Below are positions 20,868 through 40,338 of a stretch of DNA of 64,000 bases, one piece after another (position 1 is the first letter of the stretch; each line of letters opens with the position of its first letter). The DNA is from Pontiella desulfatans. Lineage in GTDB: Bacteria; Verrucomicrobiota; Kiritimatiellia; Kiritimatiellales; Pontiellaceae. Below the pieces are notes generated by a model. That model was not told the DNA's origin. It ran no database searches and saw only the letters and a program-made list of their open reading frames with translations. Both the position numbers and the translations under genes were made by a program. The DNA lies in the NCBI RefSeq assembly GCF_900890425.1, contig NZ_CAAHFG010000003.1, forward strand, positions 434,001-498,000, read 5' to 3'.

Positions 20868-22319
20868 GTGCCCATAGTTCCCCGCATTGTGAACATTAAA
20901 CCTCCTAAGATCATACAGGGCGGTATGGGTTTCGGCGTCTCAGACTGGCGTTTGGCCCATTCCGTATCGAAAAACGGCCAGCTGGGCGTTGTTTCCGGAA
21001 CCGCACTCGATGCCGTGGTTGCGCGAAAGCTGCAAGACGGCGACCTCGAGGGGCACGTCCGGCGCGCGCTCGACCATTTTCCGTTTCCCAAGATGGCCAA
21101 GCGCGTCCTGGACGCCTTCTATGTGCCCAAGGGATTGCCGGAGAACAAGCCCTATCGGCATATTCCCATGCATAGTCTCGAGGGCCTGCAAGCTCCGCAG
21201 GAACTCTGCATCGTCGGCAACTTCGTGGAGGTTTTCCTGGCCAAGGAAGGGCTCAGCGAACCTATCGGCATCAACTATCTTGAAAAAATCCAGCTGCCCC
21301 ACCTTCCGTCCATCTATGGCGCCATGCTGGCCGGCGTCTCCGTGGTCATCATGGGGGCGGGTATTCCGCTAACGGTTCCGGGCATCCTCGATGCGCTTGC
21401 CAACCACGACGCCGTTGAATATCCGATCTCCGTTACCGGGGAGGATGGAAAGATTGAAATCGTCAACATGCCCTTCGACCCGCGCGCATTCATGGAGGAT
21501 GCCGCCGTGCCGGAAGCCTTGCTTCGCCCGGATTTCCTCCCGATCGTTTCCACCGAGGCGCTCGCATCCATTTTGTTGAAGCGGGCAACGGGCAGCATCG
21601 AAGGCTTCATTGTCGAAGGCAACGTGGCCGGCGGCCATAACGCACCGCCGCGCGGCGCGGCCGTCTTCAACGAAGCGGGCGAACCCGTTTATGGCGCGCG
21701 CGACGACGCCAAGCTGGAAAAGTTTCGCGAATTCGGGCTTCCGTTCTGGCTCGCCGGATCCTTCGGCTCCCCCGAGGGATTGGCTAAGGCGCTTGAAGAG
21801 GGGGCCGCCGGCGTACAGGCCGGAACCGCCTTCGCGCTGTGCGAAGAATCCGGCCTCATTCCCGAAATTCGCCAGGAGCTCGTTCGCGAGGCGCTCGCCG
21901 GCAAGGCGCGTGTCTACACCGATGCGCAGGCCTCGCCAACCGGTTTCCCGTTCAAGGTTGCCGATCTTGAAGGAAGCCTTTCCGAGGAAGCTGTCTACCG
22001 GCACCGCAAGCGCATTTGCGATATTGGTTTCCTGCGCCAGCCCTTTCGCCGGGCCGACGGGAAAATCGGCTACCGCTGCGCCGCCGAACCGATTGCCAGC
22101 TATGTCGCCAAAGGCGGGGTCGAAGCGGATACGGTTGGCCGGAAATGCCTCTGCAACGCACTGGCCGCCAATATTGGCTATCCACAGCGCCTGGCCGATG
22201 GAACCCTTGAAAAATGCCTCATTACCATGGGCGACGATCTCGTGGACATCAGCCGCTTCTGCCCCTCCGGCAGTCCGGACTATTCCGCCGCCGATGTGAT
22301 CAATACCCTGCTCGGATAA
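20868..22319 (+). CDS. Nitronate monooxygenase / FabK-PfaD-like flavoprotein
   Basis: About 483 residues if GTG 20868 is used; GTG 20889 is an alternative and neither has a strong ribosome site. The N-terminal FMN-binding barrel start (PPKIIQGGMGFGVSDWRLAH), the EGNVAGGHNAPPRGAAVF motif and the phosphate-binding LAGSFGSPEGLAKALEEGAA followed by GVQAGTAF fit the 2-nitropropane-dioxygenase superfamily. It is longer than single-domain members. The C-terminal third carries cysteines (RKRICDIGFL, GYRCA, RKCLCNALAANIGYPQR, SRFCPSGSPDY) that might bind a metal or cluster. Physiological substrate unknown. It ends in a strong terminator, so it is not part of the ovothiol operon that follows. Confidence 0.78.
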   Translation: MPIVPRIVNIKPPKIIQGGMGFGVSDWRLAHSVSKNGQLGVVSGTALDAVVARKLQDGDLEGHVRRALDHFPFPKMAKRVLDAFYVPKGLPENKPYRHIPMHSLEGLQAPQELCIVGNFVEVFLAKEGLSEPIGINYLEKIQLPHLPSIYGAMLAGVSVVIMGAGIPLTVPGILDALANHDAVEYPISVTGEDGKIEIVNMPFDPRAFMEDAAVPEALLRPDFLPIVSTEALASILLKRATGSIEGFIVEGNVAGGHNAPPRGAAVFNEAGEPVYGARDDAKLEKFREFGLPFWLAGSFGSPEGLAKALEEGAAGVQAGTAFALCEESGLIPEIRQELVREALAGKARVYTDAQASPTGFPFKVADLEGSLSEEAVYRHRKRICDIGFLRQPFRRADGKIGYRCAAEPIASYVAKGGVEADTVGRKCLCNALAANIGYPQRLADGTLEKCLITMGDDLVDISRFCPSGSPDYSAADVINTLLG

Positions 22320-22345
22320 GGACAAGGCATCCGAGCAGGGCCTTG
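22306..22345 (+). terminator. Intrinsic terminator after the nitronate-monooxygenase-like gene
   Basis: CCCTGCTCGGAT (22306-22317) pairs perfectly with ATCCGAGCAGGG (22329-22340) across an 11-base loop, followed by CCTTGTTTTCCCTTT. The left arm lies inside the last codons of the gene. Confidence 0.85.
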
Positions 22346-22424
22346 TTTTCCCTTTACTCTTCGGCTAAAAATCGATGGACTCAGGATCCATGGTTTTCAC
22401 GAATGCGATTACGGAGAGAGGTTA

Positions 22425-24527
22425 ATGGAGTTCATCACGCAGAACATCGATCTTGCTTCCGGCGATGCCGAGGCCAAGCGCGCCGGGATCAAAGGGTACT
22501 TCAATGCAACCTGGAAGCTCTACGAACGATTGTTCGATACCCTCGCTTCCGATGAAGTCTTCTACAACCGCCCGCAGCCGTTGCGGCACCCGCTGATTTT
22601 CTATTTCGGCCACACGGCCGTCTTTTTCGTCAATAAGCTCATGCTCGCGAAGCTGATCGACCGCCGTGTCGATGCGCGTATGGAATCGGTCTTTGCGATC
22701 GGTGTGGATGAAATGAGCTGGGACGACCTGAACGAAGACCACTATGATTGGCCGTCGGTCGCCGAAACCCGCGCGTATCGCAATCAAGTCCAGGTCGTGG
22801 TGAACGAGTTGATTGACACCGTGGATTTTTCCATGCCGATCGACTGGGAGAGCCCGTTGTGGCCCGTGGTGATGGGGATCGAGCACGAGCGCATCCACCT
22901 GGAAACCAGCTCCGTGTTGATCCGGCAGCTCGACCTCGCCTCCGTTAAGCCGAGTCCGCTTTTTCCAGTCTGCCCCGACGTTGGCGATGCACCTGAAAAC
23001 CGCCTGCTCGATGTGCCGGGCGGAGCGGTGGAGCTTGGCAAGGGCAAGGGGCACCACCTCTATGGCTGGGACAATGAATATGGAAAGGCATCGTTTGGTG
23101 TAACGGATTTCCAGGCATCGAAATATTTAGTCAGCAACCGGGAATTCCTTTCCTTCATGGAGGATGGCGGATATGCGGACGACCGCTGGTGGGATGCGGA
23201 GGGGCGGGCCTGGCGGAACTATCACCAGGCGGCCATGCCCGAGTTTTGGCGTGGCGAGCCGGGCGCCTTCCGCCTGCGCCTGATGACGGAAGAGATCCCG
23301 CTGCCGCCCAACTGGCCGGCGGAGGTTTGCTATCTGGAGGCCAAGGCCTTCTGCAATTGGAAGGGCGAACAAACGGGGCAGGCCATCCGCATGCCGGATG
23401 AGGCGGAATACCGCCGGATGCTCCAGGTGGCCGGGCTGGAGGCCGAGCACCACGAGTCGCCGGTTGCCGCCAACTGGAACCTGGAGCACTATGCCTCCTC
23501 CGTCCCGGTCGATACCTTTGCGCACGGCGACTTCTTCGATCTCGTCGGCAATGTTTGGCAATGGAACGAAACCCCGATCTATGGCTTCGACGGTTTCGAG
23601 GTTCATCCGCTCTACGACGATTTTTCGGTGCCGACGTTCGACAACCGGCACAACCTGATCAAAGGGGGCTCGTGGATCTCCACCGGTAACGAGATTGCCC
23701 TGCATAGCCGCTATGCATTCCGTCGCCATTTCTATCAGCATGCCGGGTTCCGCTATGTCGCTTCCGAGCGGATGGTGAAGAAGGAGTTCGATGTTTATGA
23801 AACCGATGCGCTGATCTCGCAGTATTGCGAGTTCCACTATGGCGAACCCTGTTTCGGCGTGCCCAACTTTCCGCAGACCATGGCGCTGCTGGCCCTCGAT
23901 GCCATGGATGGGCGGAAAAAGGGCCGGGCGCTGGATATCGGCTGTTCCGTGGGGCGGTGCGCCTTCGAGCTGGCCGATGCGTTTGATGCGGTCGATGCAC
24001 TCGATTTCTCGGCGCGCTTTGTGCAGGTCGGCGCCCGGCTGCAACGCAGCGGGAGAATCCGCTATGAGCGGATCGAGGAGGGGGACTTGGTTTCGTTGCA
24101 TGAACACTCCCTGAAGGAACTCGGCCTGCACGGTGAATATTCCAACATTAACTTCATGCAGCAGGATGCCACCAACATGAAATCCGAGTTTTCAGGTTAT
24201 GACCTCGTCGTGGCGGCCAACTTGATCGACCGCCTTAACGATCCCGCCCGCTTCCTTCGCGATATTCGGACGCGCATGAATCCCGGCGGCGTCTTGCTGA
24301 TCGCCTCGCCCTACACCTGGCTGGAGGAGTTCACGAAAAAGGAAAAGTGGCTGGGCGGCTTCAAGCGCGATGGCGAACCCGTGACGACGCTCGACGGCCT
24401 GCACGCCGAGCTCGATGCAGGTTTCGCGCTGCAAGGCTCGCCGCTAAGGGTTCCGTTCGTCATCCGTGAAACCAAAAACAAGCACCAGCACACCCTTTCG
24501 GAAGTAACGGTATGGATAAGGAAGTAG
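22425..24527 (+). CDS. ovoA: 5-histidylcysteine sulfoxide synthase / 4-mercaptohistidine N1-methyltransferase
   Basis: A 700-residue fusion protein preceded by GAGAGG. Residues 1-180 are a DinB-like domain with the iron-ligand pattern of sulfoxide synthases: His63 (YFGHTAVFF) and H154-ERI-H158-L-E160. Residues about 195-440 are an FGE-fold domain (IRMPDEAEYRRMLQ, DLVGNVWQWNE, IKGGSWISTGNE, FRRHFYQHAGFRYV). From about 490 to the end is a SAM methyltransferase (ALDIGCSVGRCAFELAD). This three-part layout is that of OvoA, which couples cysteine to histidine C5 with oxygen and later methylates the product, giving ovothiol A. EgtB of the ergothioneine route lacks this C-terminal methyltransferase. 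The last 16 bases overlap the PLP lyase gene, completing the pathway. Confidence 0.93.
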   Translation: MEFITQNIDLASGDAEAKRAGIKGYFNATWKLYERLFDTLASDEVFYNRPQPLRHPLIFYFGHTAVFFVNKLMLAKLIDRRVDARMESVFAIGVDEMSWDDLNEDHYDWPSVAETRAYRNQVQVVVNELIDTVDFSMPIDWESPLWPVVMGIEHERIHLETSSVLIRQLDLASVKPSPLFPVCPDVGDAPENRLLDVPGGAVELGKGKGHHLYGWDNEYGKASFGVTDFQASKYLVSNREFLSFMEDGGYADDRWWDAEGRAWRNYHQAAMPEFWRGEPGAFRLRLMTEEIPLPPNWPAEVCYLEAKAFCNWKGEQTGQAIRMPDEAEYRRMLQVAGLEAEHHESPVAANWNLEHYASSVPVDTFAHGDFFDLVGNVWQWNETPIYGFDGFEVHPLYDDFSVPTFDNRHNLIKGGSWISTGNEIALHSRYAFRRHFYQHAGFRYVASERMVKKEFDVYETDALISQYCEFHYGEPCFGVPNFPQTMALLALDAMDGRKKGRALDIGCSVGRCAFELADAFDAVDALDFSARFVQVGARLQRSGRIRYERIEEGDLVSLHEHSLKELGLHGEYSNINFMQQDATNMKSEFSGYDLVVAANLIDRLNDPARFLRDIRTRMNPGGVLLIASPYTWLEEFTKKEKWLGGFKRDGEPVTTLDGLHAELDAGFALQGSPLRVPFVIRETKNKHQHTLSEVTVWIRK

Positions 24528-25687
24528 TCTACGATTTCGACACGCCTGTTTCCCGTGCCGGCACCTTTGCCGAAAAATATGAAGCGCGCGAACGCTTTTT
24601 CGGGAAGGCCGACGTCGAACCCTTCTGGGTGGCGGATATGGATTTGCCCTCGCCCGGTTTTTTGGTGGATGCCCTGCGCGAACGGCTCGGGCATCCCATG
24701 TTTGGCTACACCGAGCAATATGGCCAGGTGTTCGACGCCATCGGCTGGTGGATGAACGACCAGCATGGTGTTGAGGTGGATCGCAATTGGATTTCGCTTT
24801 CGCCCTCGGTGGTCGCGAGCATCTCGGTTGCCGTGCAAACCATGGCCGAACCCGGCGAATCGGTGGTGGTGCTTTCGCCCGTCTATGGCCCCTTCTTTTC
24901 CTGCACCACCATCAACGGGCGCTCGGTTGCCGATTGCCGTTTGACCGTGGGGCAGGGGCGCTTTGAAATCGATTTCGATGCGCTGGAGAAACACGTGAGC
25001 CAGCCGGAAACCAAAATGCTCATCCTCTGCAATCCCCACAATCCCGGGGGGCGGATCTGGAGCAGGGACGAGCTTGAAAGGCTGGCCCGCCTCTGCGCGG
25101 ACAACGATACCGTGGTCTTGAGCGACGAAATTCATTGCGATATTGTCTATCCCCCGCAGCATCATGTTTCCATGCTCGGCATCGATGCCGCACGGGAAAA
25201 CCTGATCGTCGCCCATTCGATCGGGAAAACCTTCAATGCCAGCGGACTCCAGGCCTCTTTCACCATCATTCCCGATGCCCGGCTGCGTTCGCGGTTCCGG
25301 GCCGGGCTCGACCGCTCCCATGCCGGCGACGTCAATTTGCTCGGCAAGGTGGCCTTGGCCCGCGCGCTTTCGCCGGAAGGGGCCGAATACAAACGCCAGC
25401 TGGTGGCCTATCTCCACGAAAACACGCGGCAGGTCTGCGACCGGTTGCGGTTGCTGGAGGGTGCCGAGGTGATGGAGCCGGAGGCCACTTTTCTCGTCTG
25501 GTGCGACTTCCGGAAATTCGGGGCATGGCAGGAGGTCTTTGCACGATTAGTCAACGAGGCCAACGTGGCGCTCTCTGGCGGTACCTTTTTCGGTGCGGCG
25601 GGCGAGGGCTGGTTCCGTGTCAATTGCGCGCACCCGCGCTCGCTCCTGTTGCCCGCCGTTGACCGCATCGTCGATGCCTTCGGCTAA
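24512..25687 (+). CDS. ovoB: PLP-dependent sulfoxide lyase of ovothiol biosynthesis
   Basis: A 391-residue fold-type I aminotransferase-like protein of the PatB/MalY C-S lyase group: FWVADMDLPSPGFLVDALRE, FGYTEQYGQVFDAIGWWM, LCNPHNPGGRIW, VVLSDEIHCDIVYP and the PLP-binding lysine (Lys239) in HSIGKTFNASGLQ. The start ATG lies 16 bases inside ovoA, so the two are translated as a unit. By the known pathway such a lyase cleaves the 5-histidylcysteine sulfoxide made by OvoA to 5-thiohistidine, which OvoA then methylates. An alternative role as a general cystathionine beta-lyase cannot be excluded, but the overlap argues for OvoB. Confidence 0.88.
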   Translation: MDKEVVYDFDTPVSRAGTFAEKYEARERFFGKADVEPFWVADMDLPSPGFLVDALRERLGHPMFGYTEQYGQVFDAIGWWMNDQHGVEVDRNWISLSPSVVASISVAVQTMAEPGESVVVLSPVYGPFFSCTTINGRSVADCRLTVGQGRFEIDFDALEKHVSQPETKMLILCNPHNPGGRIWSRDELERLARLCADNDTVVLSDEIHCDIVYPPQHHVSMLGIDAARENLIVAHSIGKTFNASGLQASFTIIPDARLRSRFRAGLDRSHAGDVNLLGKVALARALSPEGAEYKRQLVAYLHENTRQVCDRLRLLEGAEVMEPEATFLVWCDFRKFGAWQEVFARLVNEANVALSGGTFFGAAGEGWFRVNCAHPRSLLLPAVDRIVDAFG

Positions 25688-25703
25688 TCCTATAAAACGC
25701 AGT

Positions 25704-25797
25704 AGAAATGAAGAAAACGGAGATATAGCCAATAAACACACTGCTATCGTTTGATTCCCGCTTCAACCAACGGGTTATTTTTGTTTTCTTCATTTCT
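25704..25797. repeat. Perfect 15-bp inverted repeat after ovoB
   Basis: AGAAATGAAGAAAAC (25704-25718) is the exact reverse complement of 25783-25797. The arms flank 64 bases. The left arm starts 17 bases after the ovoB stop. Function unknown; the AT-rich arms are unlike an ordinary terminator. Confidence 0.55.
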
Positions 25798-26002
25798 CCC
25801 CTTCGGGTTGCCGATTTCACCGCACCTGCTTCGGTTTGAGCCCCTCGGAGTAGGCGTCTACGCCGTCGGGACTCAAATCTTTCATCTACGGTAAACTTGG
25901 CAACTGCTTTTTTAGGCGAATCGGTCTGCACATGCCAAAACGGGAGACCGGTAGCGTGATCGATGTCGCGCATGAGCCCGGTGACGCGTGGTGTTCGGTG
26001 CT

Positions 26003-26036
26003 GGCATCCCCCGCTTGAACGAGGGATGCCTTGTTT
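26003..26036 (+). terminator. Terminator-like hairpin
   Basis: GGCATCCC (26003-26010) pairs with GGGATGCC (26023-26030), followed by TTGTTTT. It resembles the terminator at 22306 in layout and may end the ovoAB transcript, although it lies about 315 bases past the ovoB stop. Confidence 0.5.
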
Positions 26037-26076
26037 TCGGAAACGAACGCGCGGGATTTCCCTGATCGGGACAAAT

Positions 26077-26098
26077 ATCATACTTATGCAAGTATGAT
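26077..26098. promoter_or_regulatory. Short palindrome, operator candidate
   Basis: ATCATACTT, ATGC, AAGTATGAT: a perfect 9-bp stem with a 4-base centre. It resembles a repressor half-site pair. There is no adjacent intact gene other than the IS630 element, so its target is unclear. Confidence 0.35.
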
Positions 26099-26177
26099 GT
26101 TTTGGGAGGGACGGAAGTTTTGTTCGTGCGACTGGGATCAAGCAAAACGGGCCGCAAGGACGCCAGGTATAAACCTA

Positions 26178-27177
26178 GAGCATTTTAAATAATTCTATAG
26201 CCATTAGATGAGTCATTGTGTAGAGTTCTTTGCATGAGCACTCTATCACTGGATCTACGCCAGAGAATTCTGGCCACCTACGATGCCGGAGAAGGAACCC
26301 GGCAGGACATTGCTGACCGATACAAGGTATCGCTTGGTATGGTAAAGAAGCTCCTCTCGCAACGGAAGCGAACCGGCGATATCGCCCCGCTTCACAGCCA
26401 TTCAGGAAGAAAACCCTACTTCACCCAAGAGCACCGGAAGCAGATGAAAACGCTGATTGATCGGCAACCTGATATCACGTTGTGGGAGATCCGAGAGCAA
26501 CTGGAGCTCGATTGCACGCTGCCTGCCATTCACTATGTACTCAAGGACATGGGGATGAGCTTTAAAAAAAACGCTTCACGCCAGCGAGCAAGGGCGCGAA
26601 GACGTGAAACTCGCACGGGCTGAGTGGATGGCCATGCAAGGGCAACTTGACATTGCTCGGTTGGTCTTTATTGATGAGGCTGGAGCCAAGACCAATATGA
26701 CTCGGCTGTACGGACGCTCGCCGAAAAATGAGCGGGCTTACGATCACGCCCCGCATGGCCATTGGTGTACCACCACCATGATCTCCTCCATTCGTTTCAA
26801 CGGAGAAACAGCCTGCATGGCGATTGATGCCGCCACAAGCGGCGATGTATTCCGTGCCTATGTCGAACAGGTTCTAGCTCCGACTCTTCGAGTGGGCGAT
26901 ATCGTTGTGCTTGATAACCTCTCGGCTCATAAGGACAAGGCTTCGTTACAGTTGATCGAAGAAGCTGGGGCAGAGGTTTGGTTCCTTCCGCCCTACAGTC
27001 CTGATCTCAATCCCATCGAAAAGATGTGGAGCAAAGTAAAGCAATTGCTTCGCGGGGAAAAAGCGCGCTCCCTGGAATCTCTGTTTGATGCGATCGGCGC
27101 TGCCTTAGGGTGCGTTAGTGCGGCGGATGCTCAAGGTTGGTTTGCCTCATGCGGCTACAGTTTAAATTAAATTGCTC
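26178..27177 (+). mobile_element. IS630-family insertion sequence, apparently intact
   Basis: The 1000-bp element is bounded by TA on both sides (26176-26177 and 27178-27179), as expected for TA-targeting IS630/Tc1 elements. The ends are inverted repeats: GAGCA followed by an AT-rich tract and CTATAGCC on the left, and the matching TGCTC end on the right. About 22 of 28 terminal positions match when the TA is included. It encodes a two-frame transposase. Confidence 0.9.
26234..27170 (+). CDS. IS630-family transposase made from two overlapping frames
   Basis: The first frame (26234-26623) encodes the helix-turn-helix part (LRQRILATYDAGEGTRQDIA, RYKVSLGMVKKLL, IREQLELDCTLPAIHYVLKDMG). The second frame (to 27170) encodes the DDE domain: VFIDEAGAKTNMTRLYGR, VVLDNLSAHKDKA and FLPPYSPDLNPIEKMWSKVK. 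They are joined at a run of eight A (26564-26571) after GAGCTTT. Reading on in the +1 frame from the run restores the family motif KKTLHASEQGREDV. Programmed frameshifting or transcript slippage at the A run is therefore likely, and the element can be active. The second frame alone would begin at GTG 26604. Confidence 0.88.
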
Positions 27178-27555: not shown

Positions 27556-27945
27556 CTAGTCCAGCCAACGGTACATCCAGCGGACGATGCTGAAGCGGTT
27601 GATTTGGCTGATGGCTTTCTCTACCGAATATTGGACGATGTAGGCGGTTGAATCGTAGGGCGGATTCTGGATTTCACCGGTATCGAGCTTGTGCAGGGCC
27701 AGCAGCGCCCGTTTGTCGCCGAGCTGCCCCAGCGCCCAGATGGCGCTGTTGCGTTTTTCGAACGAGGCACTTTCATCCTCAACCAATGCAATCAAGGCCA
27801 TGGCCGGTTCCCCTCCATAGGTTGCCTGCGCGTCCCGGGTGTAGGTTTCGACACCGTTGAAGATGAGGCGGCATCCATAGCCATAGAGAGCCAGCACCGT
27901 TAGGACGGTGATGATCATTGCGGTTCTGAAGGTTGGCTTCTTCAT
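27556..27945 (-). CDS. Membrane-anchored HEAT-repeat-like small protein
   Basis: A 129-residue protein with an N-terminal membrane segment (TAMIITVLTVLALYGYGC) and a short HEAT/PBS-lyase-like repeat (FEKRNSAIWALGQLGDKRALLALHKL). The C-terminus (VEKAISQINRFSIVRWMYRW) is amphipathic. HEAT-like repeats usually mediate protein contacts; no enzyme motif is visible. It stands alone with repeat DNA on its 3' side. Function not assignable. Confidence 0.65.
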   Translation of the reverse strand: MKKPTFRTAMIITVLTVLALYGYGCRLIFNGVETYTRDAQATYGGEPAMALIALVEDESASFEKRNSAIWALGQLGDKRALLALHKLDTGEIQNPPYDSTAYIVQYSVEKAISQINRFSIVRWMYRWLD

Positions 27946-29506: not shown

Positions 29507-30073
29507 TTATTCGGGCGTGCGGTCTTGCGGGAGCAACCAAGCAATGATGATGAACCCGATGCCGATGCCTCCGGCGATAACCAGGGGAGGGATGGCGGGG
29601 ATCAAGGCGGTATAGCCCTCGACTCCGGTTTCCGCCAGTGTTGCCTTGCCGCCACCGATGGCATGGAACATTGGCGTGGATTCCAGTGCGCCATAAAGCA
29701 GGGTGAAGAGCAACGCGCCGACGAGGCCGCCGAGAATAAAGAAGAGCGCATCTTTTCGCAGGGCTCCGGCGGCAACGAGTCCGGTGCCGGGGCAGAATCC
29801 GGAAACCGCCCAGCCCACGCCCATGAGGGCGCCCCCGGCGATTACGCCGGTGTAGGCCGTTTTCACACTCAGATGCCCCGGGTCGGCAAGACCCAGGGCC
29901 AACAGGATGAAGAGCAGCAAGCTACCGAGTCCAATGCCCAGGAGAATGGCTTTCATGAGATGGAAATCCTTTAGGCGCAACATCTCGGTGATGCGCTGGG
30001 GGTTTGCCGCCCCCGATTTTTGAAGAACGAACCCGAAGAATGTACCGATCAGAATGGCTGCAATGAGATTCAT
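29507..30073 (-). CDS. YeeE/YedE family transporter, C-terminal-type half
   Basis: A 188-residue membrane protein with about five transmembrane segments. It contains the family motif GWAVSGFCPGTGLVAAGA, where the Cys corresponds to conserved thiol residues of the sulfur-transport (DUF395) family, and FFGFVLQKSGAA near the N-terminus. YeeE/YedE proteins move thiosulfate or related sulfur species across the inner membrane. It begins immediately after its sister gene (one base between them), so the two very probably make one transporter from two half-sized subunits. Not a full-length YeeE, which carries both halves in one chain. Confidence 0.88.
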   Translation of the reverse strand: MNLIAAILIGTFFGFVLQKSGAANPQRITEMLRLKDFHLMKAILLGIGLGSLLLFILLALGLADPGHLSVKTAYTGVIAGGALMGVGWAVSGFCPGTGLVAAGALRKDALFFILGGLVGALLFTLLYGALESTPMFHAIGGGKATLAETGVEGYTALIPAIPPLVIAGGIGIGFIIIAWLLPQDRTPE

Positions 30074-30074
30074 G

Positions 30075-30656
30075 CTATTTCCCCTTCCTGAACATCAGAA
30101 TGGCGGTCGGGATGGCACACGCAAACGCACCCATTGCAAACAGGTAGCCGCTCAGCGAGGTTTGCATCATTCCGCTCATCATGTGTCCGCTGGTGCATCC
30201 CCCGGCGAGGCGCGATCCAAACAGAACCAGCACGCCGCCGGCAAAGACCACCAGATAGCGTTTGCCGGATGAGTGGCCAAACCGGTTGCGCCAGACTTCC
30301 GGTGCCACCCGGTTTCCGGGCTGCCGGTCGGACTGGAGACGGGAGGCCAGGAACCCGCCCGCGATCATGGCGAGCACGAAAACAAAGCTGTAGTTCAATG
30401 GTTTGGCGATGCTCTTTGCATATTTCCCGCCGCTCTTGTTCAAATAGGGATTGGTGCTCGCATAGCCCGATGCCGCCGAGTCGTCCTCAACCACCAGGTC
30501 GCTTGAAAACAGGTTCCAGACCATTCCGTCGAAGATGACGAACTGGGTGGAGACCCCGATCGGCTTGACCACCACCACGGCGAGCAGGAAGGCAAGGCCC
30601 AGCGCGATCCCGCTGGCTTTCCAGCTCCATTGTTTCTGATAGAGGAATTTTTTCAT
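30075..30656 (-). CDS. YeeE/YedE family transporter, GCTSGH-containing half
   Basis: A 193-residue membrane protein with segments IALGLAFLLAVVVVKPIG, FVFVLAMIAGGFLASRL, YLVVFAGGVLVLFGSRLAGG and YLFAMGAFACAIPTAILMF. The motif LAGGCTSGHMMSG is the hallmark of the YeeE/YedE (DUF395) sulfur transporters. A soluble loop (SDLVVEDDSAASGYAS to YAKSIAKPL) follows the second segment. It is the first gene of the pair. I infer uptake of thiosulfate or a persulfide carrier; no TusA or sulfurtransferase gene is adjacent, although a degenerate rhodanese exists at 2316. Its promoter must lie in 30657-30731. Confidence 0.88.
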   Translation of the reverse strand: MKKFLYQKQWSWKASGIALGLAFLLAVVVVKPIGVSTQFVIFDGMVWNLFSSDLVVEDDSAASGYASTNPYLNKSGGKYAKSIAKPLNYSFVFVLAMIAGGFLASRLQSDRQPGNRVAPEVWRNRFGHSSGKRYLVVFAGGVLVLFGSRLAGGCTSGHMMSGMMQTSLSGYLFAMGAFACAIPTAILMFRKGK

Positions 30657-30731: not shown

Positions 30732-31562
30732 TTAGAACGGGGGCTGGACAACGATCATGGACCGTTGAACCGGAACGTTGAAGACTACAGACTTGGAGGA
30801 GTCGTCCGTCTCCACGCGTTCCATGATCAGGTTGACCTCGGTTCCCGCTTGGCCGCGGAGCTGCTGCACGATGTTCTGCATCGACTGCCCCTTGAAGTAG
30901 GTGGGTTCCCCCTCGCCGTTTTCGATGCCCACAATGTAGTCGCCGGGCTGGGTCATTCCGGTGGAGTCGATGGCGCTGAGGACGGTGGTGTCCATGATTC
31001 TCGGCACGCCGGTTTCATCCATGTGGATTCTCGCGCCGATACCGACCAGGGCATTTTTGTTGATGGCCTCCAGGGCCACCCTTCTTTCCTCGGGATCCTC
31101 CAGCCCCATGGCCCAGTCGATCGTGCTGGGCGTATCGATCCGGACGTTTGCGGACATCGATTGGATCAGGGCCAGTCGCCGGTCCGGGTTTTGTTCCCGG
31201 TTCAGCATGTCCTGCTTTTGCGAAAACCGCCGGGCGGCGATCTCCCAATAATTCGGGGCCGGGCGCGGCCTGCGCTGGACGGCTTTCGGGGTGGACTGCT
31301 GCGGTGCCGCCTCTTTCGCCGGGGCCTTGCCCCGGATCTCCGCCGGCTCCGGTGGTTCAATGGGTTTGGGTGGTGGCGGAGCCGTTTTGCGCACAACAAC
31401 CAGGGGTTCGTCTTTCTCCGGTTCGGTTGGGGTTTCCCGCACCTGCTCCGTCGCGGATGGTGGGGCCGCAGGTTCCGGCTCCGGCCTTTGCCGCATGCGA
31501 TAGGCGGCGCCCATCCCCAGGGCCGCGCCGATCAATAGGATGTATGGAGTAACGGTTTTCAT
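30732..31562 (-). CDS. Membrane-anchored PDZ-domain protein
   Basis: A 276-residue protein with a single N-terminal membrane segment (TPYILLIGAALGMGAAY), a long Pro/Glu/Lys-rich linker (residues about 25-95) and a folded C-terminal half. Residues about 165-275 look like a PDZ domain: VGIGARIHMDETG, VLSAIDSTGMTQPGDYIVGI, then a ligand-binding-loop region and YFKGQSMQNIVQQLRGQAG. No protease catalytic residues are present, so it is probably a scaffold or substrate-binding factor. Upstream of the transporter pair on the same strand, with a 75-base gap. Its linker style matches that of the PilP-like protein at 28737. Confidence 0.7.
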   Translation of the reverse strand: MKTVTPYILLIGAALGMGAAYRMRQRPEPEPAAPPSATEQVRETPTEPEKDEPLVVVRKTAPPPPKPIEPPEPAEIRGKAPAKEAAPQQSTPKAVQRRPRPAPNYWEIAARRFSQKQDMLNREQNPDRRLALIQSMSANVRIDTPSTIDWAMGLEDPEERRVALEAINKNALVGIGARIHMDETGVPRIMDTTVLSAIDSTGMTQPGDYIVGIENGEGEPTYFKGQSMQNIVQQLRGQAGTEVNLIMERVETDDSSKSVVFNVPVQRSMIVVQPPF

Positions 31563-37045: not shown

Positions 37046-38971
37046 ATGTCAAAGGCTAATCATATTAAACTAGCGGTTCTAATGTGCTTCACGGGTTTGT
37101 TTTCGGTAACGATGGTAGAAGCGGGTTACACGTCAGTCTCCAGCTCCTTTCAGTCATATGAGACAAGAAGAGGCGAGACCAATGCCATCTCGAATCCACC
37201 GAAGAATCTCGTAGACTATGAAAGTGTGGTTGAGATTAAGCCTGACAGAGCGGCACTGAGTCGGGCAATCGGCCTTGGCCCAACCAAGGAACAATCAAGA
37301 GAGATCAGCTTACTTCAAGAGCAGATAAAAGCCATCCGGAAAGATATTCGCATTGTTCTGGGTCTAGTTGAATCATATGAACGTTTTTATGCATCGTTTG
37401 ATCCTAGCAAGGCAACCCAGCTAAAGTATGTGGAACTCTGGACAAAGCAGTTGGCCATAGTGAGTCAACTCAAAACAAATATTCATGAATACGTAAACCA
37501 GCGATATTATTATGGGAAGTGGAACTACAATGCCGATGATGAAAGCAAGCTTGGCATCTCGCTGGAAGAGTCCGATGTAGCCAATGATCATGTCAGCAGT
37601 ATCTACAATCGTATCGCGCCGTCTGCCAGCAACTATAGTCCAGATGCGATAACCGAGTTCCTTAACGAATATATTTCATTGTTAAATGATAAGATCGAAA
37701 AGTATGAACTGGCTCTAATAAAAGACAACGCTCAACTCGAAATGGAAGCCAAATTGGTCAGGGGAAAAGAACAGATACCTGTAACCATCAGTCCATACAC
37801 AAAAGTTGCCGGATCCGGCAGAGGCCAGAAGAGTAAACGAATCGGCATACCAAGCGAGGAAGATACCAAACGAGTTGCAGATGAATACAAGGCCTATAAC
37901 GAGTTGGCCAAAACTATCAATGTCATCCTAGACAAGAGCACAGAAGAGAATATTAAAAATCTACAACGGGATATCGTAACCGCACTTTCCAACTCATTCT
38001 CATCGGTAACGAATTCTCTCCTGACCGAACTGAACGATATTACAAATACGAACGATACAACGCTGGCCGTATACAAGGCTGATGCACAAGCAATCATCGA
38101 TAAAACTAAAGCAGTAAAAAAGCAGATCGAGACCCTTATTAAATCCGCTTCGGCTGATACGCCGATAAGTCCTGTTGAGGTCGCAGCCGAAGCAACAACA
38201 ATTGTTGCTGGTATTGAAGCAATAAAAGAGAATGTTGTTATTCTGGAGCAGAAGGCATCCTCCTCTCAGAATCTAGCTGCAAACCAGAAAAAGTGGCTGG
38301 ATGATGTATTGAAAAAGGCTGGAGATGCTCTGGATACAGGGCTGAAAAACACCAACGGAGATTTTGCCCAGCTTTACGTTTCTCTGATGGCTCTCAAAGG
38401 TCTTCCTCAAAGACAATCCTTCGGTAAACTGGACGGGAGGACAATTGCACGCACGCCGTTTTCCATAGCGCTTTCTCCTGCTGGAGTTGTTCATCTTGCA
38501 GATACTCCCGCAGAACAGGGCGATGACCTCATGGTCATATATAGTGTTACAGTGAATCCGAGAATTGCGTCTGAAGAGAGTGAAAACACATACACCTTTG
38601 AAGGATCGAAGCTTTTTGGAGTAAGGAAGTTCGGGTGGTACACTACCTACAACGCTCAGCTTTTGTTCTTTAACCGTTTAAGTGACAACTCCTCCTCCTT
38701 CAGGGCGGCACCTGGGGTGGGATATAACTTCCATTACAGGCCCATATCATATGGCCACACATTTTATGATATATTTGCTCCCGGATTGGGAATCAATGTT
38801 TCTGCTCCAAGCTTTGAGACCGGAACAGAACTCGCGGTCGGTGTTCAGCTTACTCTTCTCAAAAATTTCCTGCAGTTGGGTTACGGCTACAACCTGAGCG
38901 TTGAGGATGATCCGCACATGTTTTTCTTTGCGCTGGATCTAATCCAGACCTTCCAGGCAGTTCCTCGTTAA
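37046..38971 (+). CDS. Exported coiled-coil protein with a C-terminal beta-barrel-like domain
   Basis: A 641-residue protein behind GGGAG. A signal peptide (LAVLMCFTGLFSVTMVEAG) is followed by a long helical region (residues about 85-480) rich in heptad-like repeats (EQSREISLLQEQIKAIRKDI, TKAVKKQIETLIKS, EAIKENVVILEQKASS). The last 120 residues alternate aromatic and hydrophobic positions (FGVRKFGWYTTYNAQLLFF, YNFHYRPISYGH, ELAVGVQLTLLKNFLQLGYG, MFFFALDLIQTF), like a small outer-membrane barrel or wedge. I infer an envelope protein whose coiled coil spans or leaves the periplasm. No family recognised. AT-rich; last gene of the three-gene unit. Confidence 0.68.
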   Translation: MSKANHIKLAVLMCFTGLFSVTMVEAGYTSVSSSFQSYETRRGETNAISNPPKNLVDYESVVEIKPDRAALSRAIGLGPTKEQSREISLLQEQIKAIRKDIRIVLGLVESYERFYASFDPSKATQLKYVELWTKQLAIVSQLKTNIHEYVNQRYYYGKWNYNADDESKLGISLEESDVANDHVSSIYNRIAPSASNYSPDAITEFLNEYISLLNDKIEKYELALIKDNAQLEMEAKLVRGKEQIPVTISPYTKVAGSGRGQKSKRIGIPSEEDTKRVADEYKAYNELAKTINVILDKSTEENIKNLQRDIVTALSNSFSSVTNSLLTELNDITNTNDTTLAVYKADAQAIIDKTKAVKKQIETLIKSASADTPISPVEVAAEATTIVAGIEAIKENVVILEQKASSSQNLAANQKKWLDDVLKKAGDALDTGLKNTNGDFAQLYVSLMALKGLPQRQSFGKLDGRTIARTPFSIALSPAGVVHLADTPAEQGDDLMVIYSVTVNPRIASEESENTYTFEGSKLFGVRKFGWYTTYNAQLLFFNRLSDNSSSFRAAPGVGYNFHYRPISYGHTFYDIFAPGLGINVSAPSFETGTELAVGVQLTLLKNFLQLGYGYNLSVEDDPHMFFFALDLIQTFQAVPR

Positions 38972-39165: not shown

Positions 39166-40338
39166 ATGGAAGATCCGGTCTATGTAAAAATCCTTGAGGA
39201 AAAAAGTAGGTGGAAAAAGGCTTTTCATTTCGTGGGACAGCTCAGTGTGGTGCTGGGAATCGTCGCTATCGTCGTGAATCTCTTTTTAGCTCTTGATGAA
39301 CGAGATTTGGCTAGAGAGGAGCGTGCTGCAAACAAATTTTTTCGAGAGCAAGCTGATTTTCGAGCGATGTATGATGATGTAATCAAGAACAGGTACAGTA
39401 CGGAGAAGCTTGTGGAGGCCATAAGCGAAATACTTGACAAGGGTTACAGTGTTGCGGGATTTGACCTATCCCGAACATCGACTAGTAACCTAATTGGTCT
39501 TTCCGGTCAGAATCTCTATGCCATTAATTTCAATGAATCAACACTCGATGATTCCAATCTATCAAATTCTGATTTAACAAGGTCTTCTTTCCAAGAGGCT
39601 TTTATTCACAAGATAAATTTCTCGAATGCATTGCTCATTATTACTGATTTTCGAGAGGCGAATTTGAGTTATACGGATTTTTCAAAGGCAAATCTCGGTA
39701 AGGCGATTTTGGATGATAGTGATCAATACAATATCCAATATACAGAGTCGGAGATGATCGAGACATCATCGACTAATGCGACTTATGATAATGTTGATTT
39801 CTTTAAGGCATATCTGGCCGAAGCAGACTTCTCTCAAGTCACGGTCAAATCCTCAGCGTTACTAGAAATTGAAATTGAAGAGTCTGTTTTTAGGTTTTCC
39901 AGCTTTGATAGCTCTGATCTTAATGGTGCAAGAATCACAAATAGTGACTTTTACGGCAGTAAGTTATCGAGCTGTTCATTTGTTGGGGCTTCAGTTACTT
40001 CATCTGATTTTTCAGATGCCACGCTGAAAAACATCACTTTTGATCAAGCGGATTTAACCGATACCTCATTTAGTTTTACTTCTTTTGCTAACGTTAATTT
40101 CGGTAGTGCCAATCTTGACAATGCCCGGATCTTCGGGGCTCTGTTCATCGGGTGCGATCTCTCTTCGGTCTCTAACCTTAAACAAGAATCGGTTGATCGG
40201 GCATTTGGCAGTCACAGCACTAAATTGCCAAATTACATCAATCGGCCTAAAAACTGGAACCAGTCTGATGGGGAAAGCTCTGATCAATGGGTGGATTTTG
40301 AGTCGGAAAAGAATCTGAATAAAAAAATCGCTAACTGA
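39166..40338 (+). CDS. Membrane-anchored pentapeptide-repeat protein
   Basis: A 390-residue protein behind GGGAGGT. Residues about 20-45 form one membrane segment (FVGQLSVVLGIVAIVVNLFLA). From about residue 95 to 345 runs a pentapeptide-repeat right-handed beta-helix (A/N/S-D/N-L/F-x-x pattern: ESTLDDSNLSNSDLTRSSFQ, ANLSYTDFSKANLGKAIL, TNSDFYGSKLSSCSFVGASV). A hydrophilic tail ends the protein. The helix probably faces the cytoplasm, but the orientation cannot be fixed. No enzymatic domain. Codon use is AT-rich like its island neighbours; 194 bases without a gene separate it from the previous one. Confidence 0.82.
   Translation: MEDPVYVKILEEKSRWKKAFHFVGQLSVVLGIVAIVVNLFLALDERDLAREERAANKFFREQADFRAMYDDVIKNRYSTEKLVEAISEILDKGYSVAGFDLSRTSTSNLIGLSGQNLYAINFNESTLDDSNLSNSDLTRSSFQEAFIHKINFSNALLIITDFREANLSYTDFSKANLGKAILDDSDQYNIQYTESEMIETSSTNATYDNVDFFKAYLAEADFSQVTVKSSALLEIEIEESVFRFSSFDSSDLNGARITNSDFYGSKLSSCSFVGASVTSSDFSDATLKNITFDQADLTDTSFSFTSFANVNFGSANLDNARIFGALFIGCDLSSVSNLKQESVDRAFGSHSTKLPNYINRPKNWNQSDGESSDQWVDFESEKNLNKKIAN

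Follow-up and report, generated by a model that had tools for sequence, protein, structure and literature searches.

The ovoA-ovoB gene pair

Discussions of ovothiol usually concern its role as an antioxidant in aerobic marine organisms. Here, we describe two overlapping genes that very probably serve its synthesis in a fermenting anaerobe, Pontiella desulfatans. The genes, ovoA and ovoB, lie in a stretch of 64,000 nucleotides (contig NZ_CAAHFG010000003.1, positions 434,001 to 498,000), hereafter the window, from a genome of 8,658,305 bp in six contigs. All coordinates are those of the window unless stated otherwise. We consider it highly probable that the two genes constitute a translationally coupled operon and that its product is made when the host meets oxygen.

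The first gene, ovoA (22425..24527, forward strand), starts with ATG and encodes 700 amino acids. Profile matches predict a fusion of an N-terminal 5-histidylcysteine sulfoxide synthase (TIGR04344, residues 7-445, 678 bits, E 5.6e-204, cut-off 400) with a C-terminal 4-mercaptohistidine N-methyltransferase (TIGR04345, residues 458-697, 321.3 bits, E 3.7e-96, cut-off 170). Both profiles are NCBIfam equivalog models. The best solved relative, 8khq, is named as a two-domain enzyme and aligns over residues 15-698 (E 1.6e-267). The related identities EgtB (158.8 bits, cut-off 360) and SenA (155.1 bits, cut-off 420) were considered for this gene and rejected. In the residue alignment the H-x3-H-x-E iron motif is found as HERIHLE at residues 154-160, comprising H154, H158 and E160 (22884..22904, forward strand). 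A further putative iron ligand, H63 (codon 22611..22613, forward strand), is histidine in 113 of 113 aligned rows; we take its role from work on EgtB and OvoA. Motif and H63 are invariant or conserved in more than 98% of the aligned rows, and this near-invariant set is unchanged in the window copy. The residue counts (113 OvoA rows, 88 lyase rows) include duplicate loci. Residue 302 is cysteine in all 12 genus rows and asparagine in 87 of the 88 other rows compared. In a characterised OvoA, mutation of the motif residues His170, His174 or Glu176 lowers activity about 100-fold (PMC9103826); judged by the motif, these residues would correspond to the window positions.

The second gene, ovoB (24512..25687, forward strand, ATG, 391 amino acids), encodes a pyridoxal phosphate (PLP)-dependent C-S lyase of the PatB family by profile match (TIGR04350, 395.7 bits, cut-off 340). 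Its PLP lysine, K239, is lysine in 88 of 88 aligned rows. The AlphaFold model (pLDDT 93.5) has C-S lyases as its closest solved folds, with 5z0q, entitled 'Crystal Structure of OvoB', at rank 14. In sequence as well as in fold the lyase resembles the generic C-S lyase PatB of B. subtilis (6qp3, 277.8 bits, 37% identity, Z 56.0) more than the solved OvoB (5z0q, 195.6 bits, 31% identity, Z 50.7, rmsd 1.8 over 376 aligned residues), nearness to either being a marker that is not known to define OvoB. Neither residue alignment nor fold comparison revealed a feature that would tell OvoB from other C-S lyases. Due to the greater nearness to 6qp3 we word the claim as a lyase that likely works as OvoB and completes the route, a role suggested by its linkage to ovoA.

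The end of ovoA overlaps the start of ovoB by 16 nucleotides (24512..24527, forward strand). The overlap has the same length in all 12 ovoA-bearing genomes of the genus and in G285, which belongs to another family of the class. An earlier note on this DNA, made from the letters alone, had proposed a two-gene ovothiol operon consisting of a full-length OvoA with the iron motif and a PLP lyase completing the route. The coordinates that it gave for both reading frames are exact, as are strand, ATG starts and overlap. Both OvoA domains score over their cut-offs with the motif in place, and the operon as such is well supported by these domains, the PatB-type lyase, the fixed overlap and the co-occurrence described below. 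As to the completing lyase, membership in the PatB family and linkage to ovoA stand, while the role itself is drawn from that linkage in a protein closer to 6qp3 than to 5z0q.

Distribution and history of the pair

Related genomes were surveyed for the pair, as the earlier note had proposed. Within the genus, 12 of 28 genomes have ovoA over cut-off; among the 14 genomes with a completeness of 90% or more, 9 have it. All 12 carry ovoB behind ovoA, both frames are intact throughout, and their OvoA proteins are 67-78% identical to that of the window. The lyase occurs in 15 genus genomes, namely the same 12 and three more (G390, G050 and G300), i.e. in 12 of 12 genomes with ovoA as compared to 3 of 16 without (Fisher p 1.5e-5). 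The constant overlap in 12 of 12 carriers confirms that the pairing is far beyond chance. In a sample of 387 genomes of the phylum, 19 carry ovoA over cut-off. Among the best 80 of 587 named OvoA matches, the nearest are those of Pontiella sulfatireligans F21 (77%) and Pontiellaceae bacterium B12227 (76%), followed by Marinobacter (60%). A PatB lyase (E 1e-10 or better) is located near ovoA in at least 37 of these 80 loci, 34 times directly downstream; the count is a lower bound, since 7 of the 80 loci have fewer than 1200 bases behind ovoA. Compact ovoA-ovoB pairs are therefore ordinary.

In a tree of 100 OvoA rows, the genus and G285 form one clade (support 100), which groups with six rows of the Thiomicrospira/Hydrogenovibrio type (support 99). 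Other copies from the phylum are scattered, f46 standing with f62, G004 with Planctomycetota, G156 among Nitrosomonas and G216 beside an acidobacterial row. Thermodesulfobacteriota, which include many anaerobes, account for 18 of the 100 rows. The tree was made by a quick method with midpoint rooting, leaving out rows shorter than 600 amino acids, rows with X or a stop, and identical or duplicate loci. In a tree of 70 lyase rows (rows shorter than 330 amino acids, rows with X and duplicates left out), the genus again forms a clade (100/100) that groups with Thiomicrospira-type lyases (99/89). The three lyases without detected ovoA fall inside the genus clade, that of G390 as sister of the window ovoB (99/92); the lyases of G300 and G285 are on long branches. 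Solo lyases entered this tree only from the 30 best loci of the phylum and as the three orphans of the genus, so that its scope is not that of PatB proteins at large. The agreement of both trees suggests a joint history of the pair, and the simplest reading would be joint inheritance or transfer, with later loss of ovoA in some lineages of the genus.

Looking at whether the lyase occurs exclusively with ovoA, we found it without detected ovoA in 3 of 16 genus genomes, drafts that are 85-94% complete. These orphan lyases are all intact, with identities of 75% (G390, locus L142), 67% (G050, L143) and 51% (G300, L144). The G390 lyase sits between homologs of two window genes, a HEAT-repeat gene (27556-27945) and the gene at 30732-31562, and no similarity to ovoA was found at its locus. 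In G050 (94% complete) another gene occupies the about 830 bases between the lyase and the upstream contig end, and in G300 (87% complete) other sequence lies upstream. Sites invariant among operon copies are broken at 3 of 149 positions in G390, 3 of 149 in G050 and 15 of 149 in G300, as compared to 1-6 of 150-155 when the operon copies are left out in turn. Judging by these sites, the lyase seems to be under selection without ovoA, and their conservation argues for a second substrate. PF01053 enzymes are present as well (three matches each in G000, G390 and G050, two in G300), so that plain methionine synthesis need not be the second job of the lyase. Alternatively, given the completeness of these drafts, ovoA could lie in their unassembled part.

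Surroundings of the operon

A candidate Shine-Dalgarno-like stretch, GGAGAGAGG, was read from the sequence before ovoA (22413..22421, forward strand). A scan of 22200-26250 for sigma-70-like promoters gave 0 sites, with 1.7 expected from shuffles, which is uninformative either way; a terminator scan around the operon gave 2 sites as compared to 5.0 in shuffles. Upstream lies a gene for a nitronate monooxygenase/PfaD-like protein (20868..22319, forward strand, PF03060, 54.9 bits), for which the name PfaD is our assumption. It is outside the conserved core. A larger cluster including this gene was considered and rejected, as the PfaD-like gene accompanies ovoA only in the window and in 1 of 11 other genus loci (G393, L136), some contigs ending soon upstream of ovoA. 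Downstream, an IS630-type transposase is found in two overlapping frames (26216..27170, forward strand), the first at 26216-26623 (PF01710, 26.7 bits, cut-off 21.3) and the second at 26604-27170. A pair of adjacent genes of a sulfur-transport family (PF04143) occupies 29507-30656.

Between 34000 and 40400 the G+C content falls to 43-50% as compared to 58-62% on either side; this stretch is possibly a foreign island. It holds an open reading frame (ORF) of 641 amino acids (37046-38971) that gave no Pfam match, and a pentapeptide-repeat protein at 39166-40338. In Pontiellaceae bacterium B12227, a photolyase/cryptochrome-like gene and a gene for an FAD-dependent protein follow ovoB (L010:8320-10807), and in G159 and G035 photolyases are likewise located downstream of ovoB, at a distance of about 3-6 kb. 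The photolyase was rejected as a part of the cluster, being present in 5 of 12 genus genomes with ovoA and 5 of 16 without (p 0.70).

Oxygen, alternative readings and known systems

According to the predicted route, OvoA would join histidine and cysteine with the help of iron and O2 to form 5-histidylcysteine sulfoxide, which the PLP lyase would cleave to 5-thiohistidine, pyruvate and ammonia. The oxygen requirement asserted by the earlier note agrees with the description of OvoA as an oxygen-dependent sulfoxide synthase (PMC10903977), and the host, there called a probable anaerobe, is of a genus whose published description is that of obligate anaerobes (PMC7356697); P. agarivorans is described likewise (PMC10880615). 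In a fermenting anaerobe the OvoA step would be possible only with traces of oxygen, so that the product would be made upon oxygen exposure, alongside terminal oxidases. Genomes of Pontiella hold cydAB, ccoNOP and katG, and cultures in oxygen gradients kept a reduced zone that exceeded that of controls in size and stability (PMC7356697).

In the phylum sample, 17 of 19 ovoA genomes have a COX1-type haem-copper oxidase, as compared to 124 of the 368 remaining genomes (p 1.5e-6). The corresponding figures outside the genus are 10 of 12 and 120 of 364 (p 6e-4). Cytochrome bd is present in 12 of 19 and 76 of 368 (p 1.2e-4). Counts in this sample are uncorrected for kinship. The COX1 search covered this sample, which includes 11 of the 28 genus genomes and not the other 17; all 11 have a COX1-type oxidase and 9 of them bd. 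The sister family, sampled with six genomes, lacks both oxidases, and no ovoA scores over cut-off there. A side observation concerns the locus L008 of genome G000 (C1:860414-864661), where cbb3-like subunits I and II stand beside an ORF of 492 amino acids with several CxxCH haem motifs.

Several points weigh against production of ovothiol upon oxygen exposure. Pontiella strains are described as not aerotolerant, with growth confined to the reduced zone of oxygen gradients and without catalase activity, and the P. desulfatans-type strain F1 as oxidase-negative (PMC7356697). Of the 28 genus genomes, 16 yielded no ovoA, and these include 5 of the 14 with the highest completeness. A link of ovoA to cytochrome bd had to be dropped, as the association is not significant either outside the genus (5 of 12 versus 74 of 364, p 0.14) or among its 28 genomes (9 of 12 versus 7 of 16, p 0.14). 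In two of the 19 genomes with OvoA, G285 and G156, neither oxidase was found. The CcoN of G000 reaches 267.6 bits, well short of the 583 required by the ccoN equivalog model, which points to a divergent cbb3-like enzyme. Taken together, the oxidase data fit micro-oxic use of ovoA, short of proof. The occasional oxygen exposure put forward by the earlier note is consistent with the oxidases and the published gradient cultures, and is not borne out by bd within the genus.

The lyase might instead be a general cysteine-conjugate or cystathionine beta-lyase that stands behind ovoA by chance or does both jobs, with no dedicated OvoB at all. Its nearness to 6qp3 would be explained, as would the intact copies in G390, G050 and G300, of which the first two are as conserved at the operon-invariant sites as operon copies and the third less so; moreover, OvoB has been termed a broad specificity beta-lyase (PMC12631010). 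This is possible, though we lean away from it, since the presence of the lyase tracks ovoA, the overlap is constant, the three PF01053 enzymes of the genome could serve methionine metabolism, and G000 has no second PatB over cut-off (next match 153.8 bits versus 340). More tentatively, and with considerable doubt, we raise an oxygen-triggered switch in Pontiella: OvoA would be idle in anoxia, O2 would act as its substrate and ovothiol would appear only on exposure, while a second, oxygen-independent job of OvoB would explain lineages that lost ovoA and kept ovoB.

Further readings concern OvoA itself and the pair as a whole. OvoA is reportedly also a thiol oxygenase, going by the title of a 2022 paper by Cheng that PMC10903977 cites. 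Such a side activity (also PMC9103826) in an anaerobic host could make OvoA mainly a thiol or cysteine oxygenase that scavenges O2 rather than a maker of ovothiol, yet the methyltransferase domain is kept in full and the linked lyase is kept too, both needless for an oxygenase alone, and we think this improbable. Less probable still is an oxygen-independent chemistry of OvoA in anaerobes. An alternative pathway for anaerobic carriers has been raised (PMC9103826), ergothioneine has two oxygen-free routes, by EanB and by MES (PMC10903977), and C302 is an almost private substitution of the genus. However, no change is seen in the iron motif, in H63 or in the near-invariant set, EanB and MES are distinct from OvoA and catalyse other reactions (PMC10903977), and ovoA in the phylum tracks the haem-copper oxidase. 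Finally, the patchy occurrence in the phylum, the several separate tree positions of its copies and the adjoining IS630 element would suit an acquired passenger operon without function, but with intact frames in 12 of 12 genus carriers, 67-78% OvoA identity and the preserved overlap we give this hardly any credence. Our preferred reading is the coupled operon making ovothiol upon oxygen exposure, presumably in a protective role.

The puzzle of an oxygen-dependent pathway in anaerobes is not confined to Pontiella. A 2021 survey, as summarised in a 2022 review (PMC9103826), reported OvoA/OvoB in two species known as anaerobic, maybe implying an alternative route, so that the anaerobe angle is not new; neither Pontiella nor Kiritimatiellota is named in section 3.6 of the review, as far as the excerpt goes. 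According to a 2025 paper, species with OvoA homologs come from aerobic or anaerobic habitats (PMC12631010). The earlier note had called a compact operon in an anaerobe striking. The oxygen-dependent enzyme and the anaerobic genus stand, but anaerobic carriers are already published, compact pairs are common and Thermodesulfobacteriota supply 18 of the 100 rows of the OvoA tree. We regard the ovothiol operon as real and of an ordinary kind, with a host that is of interest. The words Pontiella and ovothiol were not found together in the searched literature, which leaves most subscription journals outside its coverage; for ovothiol together with Verrucomicrobia it yielded one review of marine pharmacology; ovothiol occurs in the main text of neither PMC7356697 nor PMC10880615, as far as the excerpts go, and the genus-wide operon with its orphan lyases was not met in the same literature. 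Conserved and intact in a genus that is described as oxygen-intolerant and has P. desulfatans, P. sulfatireligans and P. agarivorans as isolates, the operon offers a tractable system for asking whether anaerobes use an oxygen-requiring pathway during exposure, and what the lyase does where ovoA is absent.

Among known systems, a PatB lyase accompanies ovoA in Thiomicrospira/Hydrogenovibrio, Geomonas, Nitrosomonas and others, as it does in Pontiella. The hosts other than Pontiella are presumably mostly aerobic or microaerobic. None of five such loci measured outside the genus has the 16-nucleotide overlap (4 to 19 nucleotides, with start codons guessed by script). With the solved OvoB 5z0q, which we take to come from E. 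tasmaniensis, and with the PatB/MalY C-S lyases, the window lyase has fold and PLP lysine in common; at 31% identity to 5z0q as against 37% to B. subtilis PatB, its role as OvoB would follow from linkage. The window OvoA shares the two-domain architecture, the iron motif and the methyltransferase domain with OvoA of Erwinia tasmaniensis and with 8khq, presumably the OvoA of Methyloversatilis thermotolerans, to which it aligns from end to end. It differs from them in its host, a fermenting anaerobe of the Kiritimatiellota, and in the cysteine that replaces asparagine at residue 302 across the genus.

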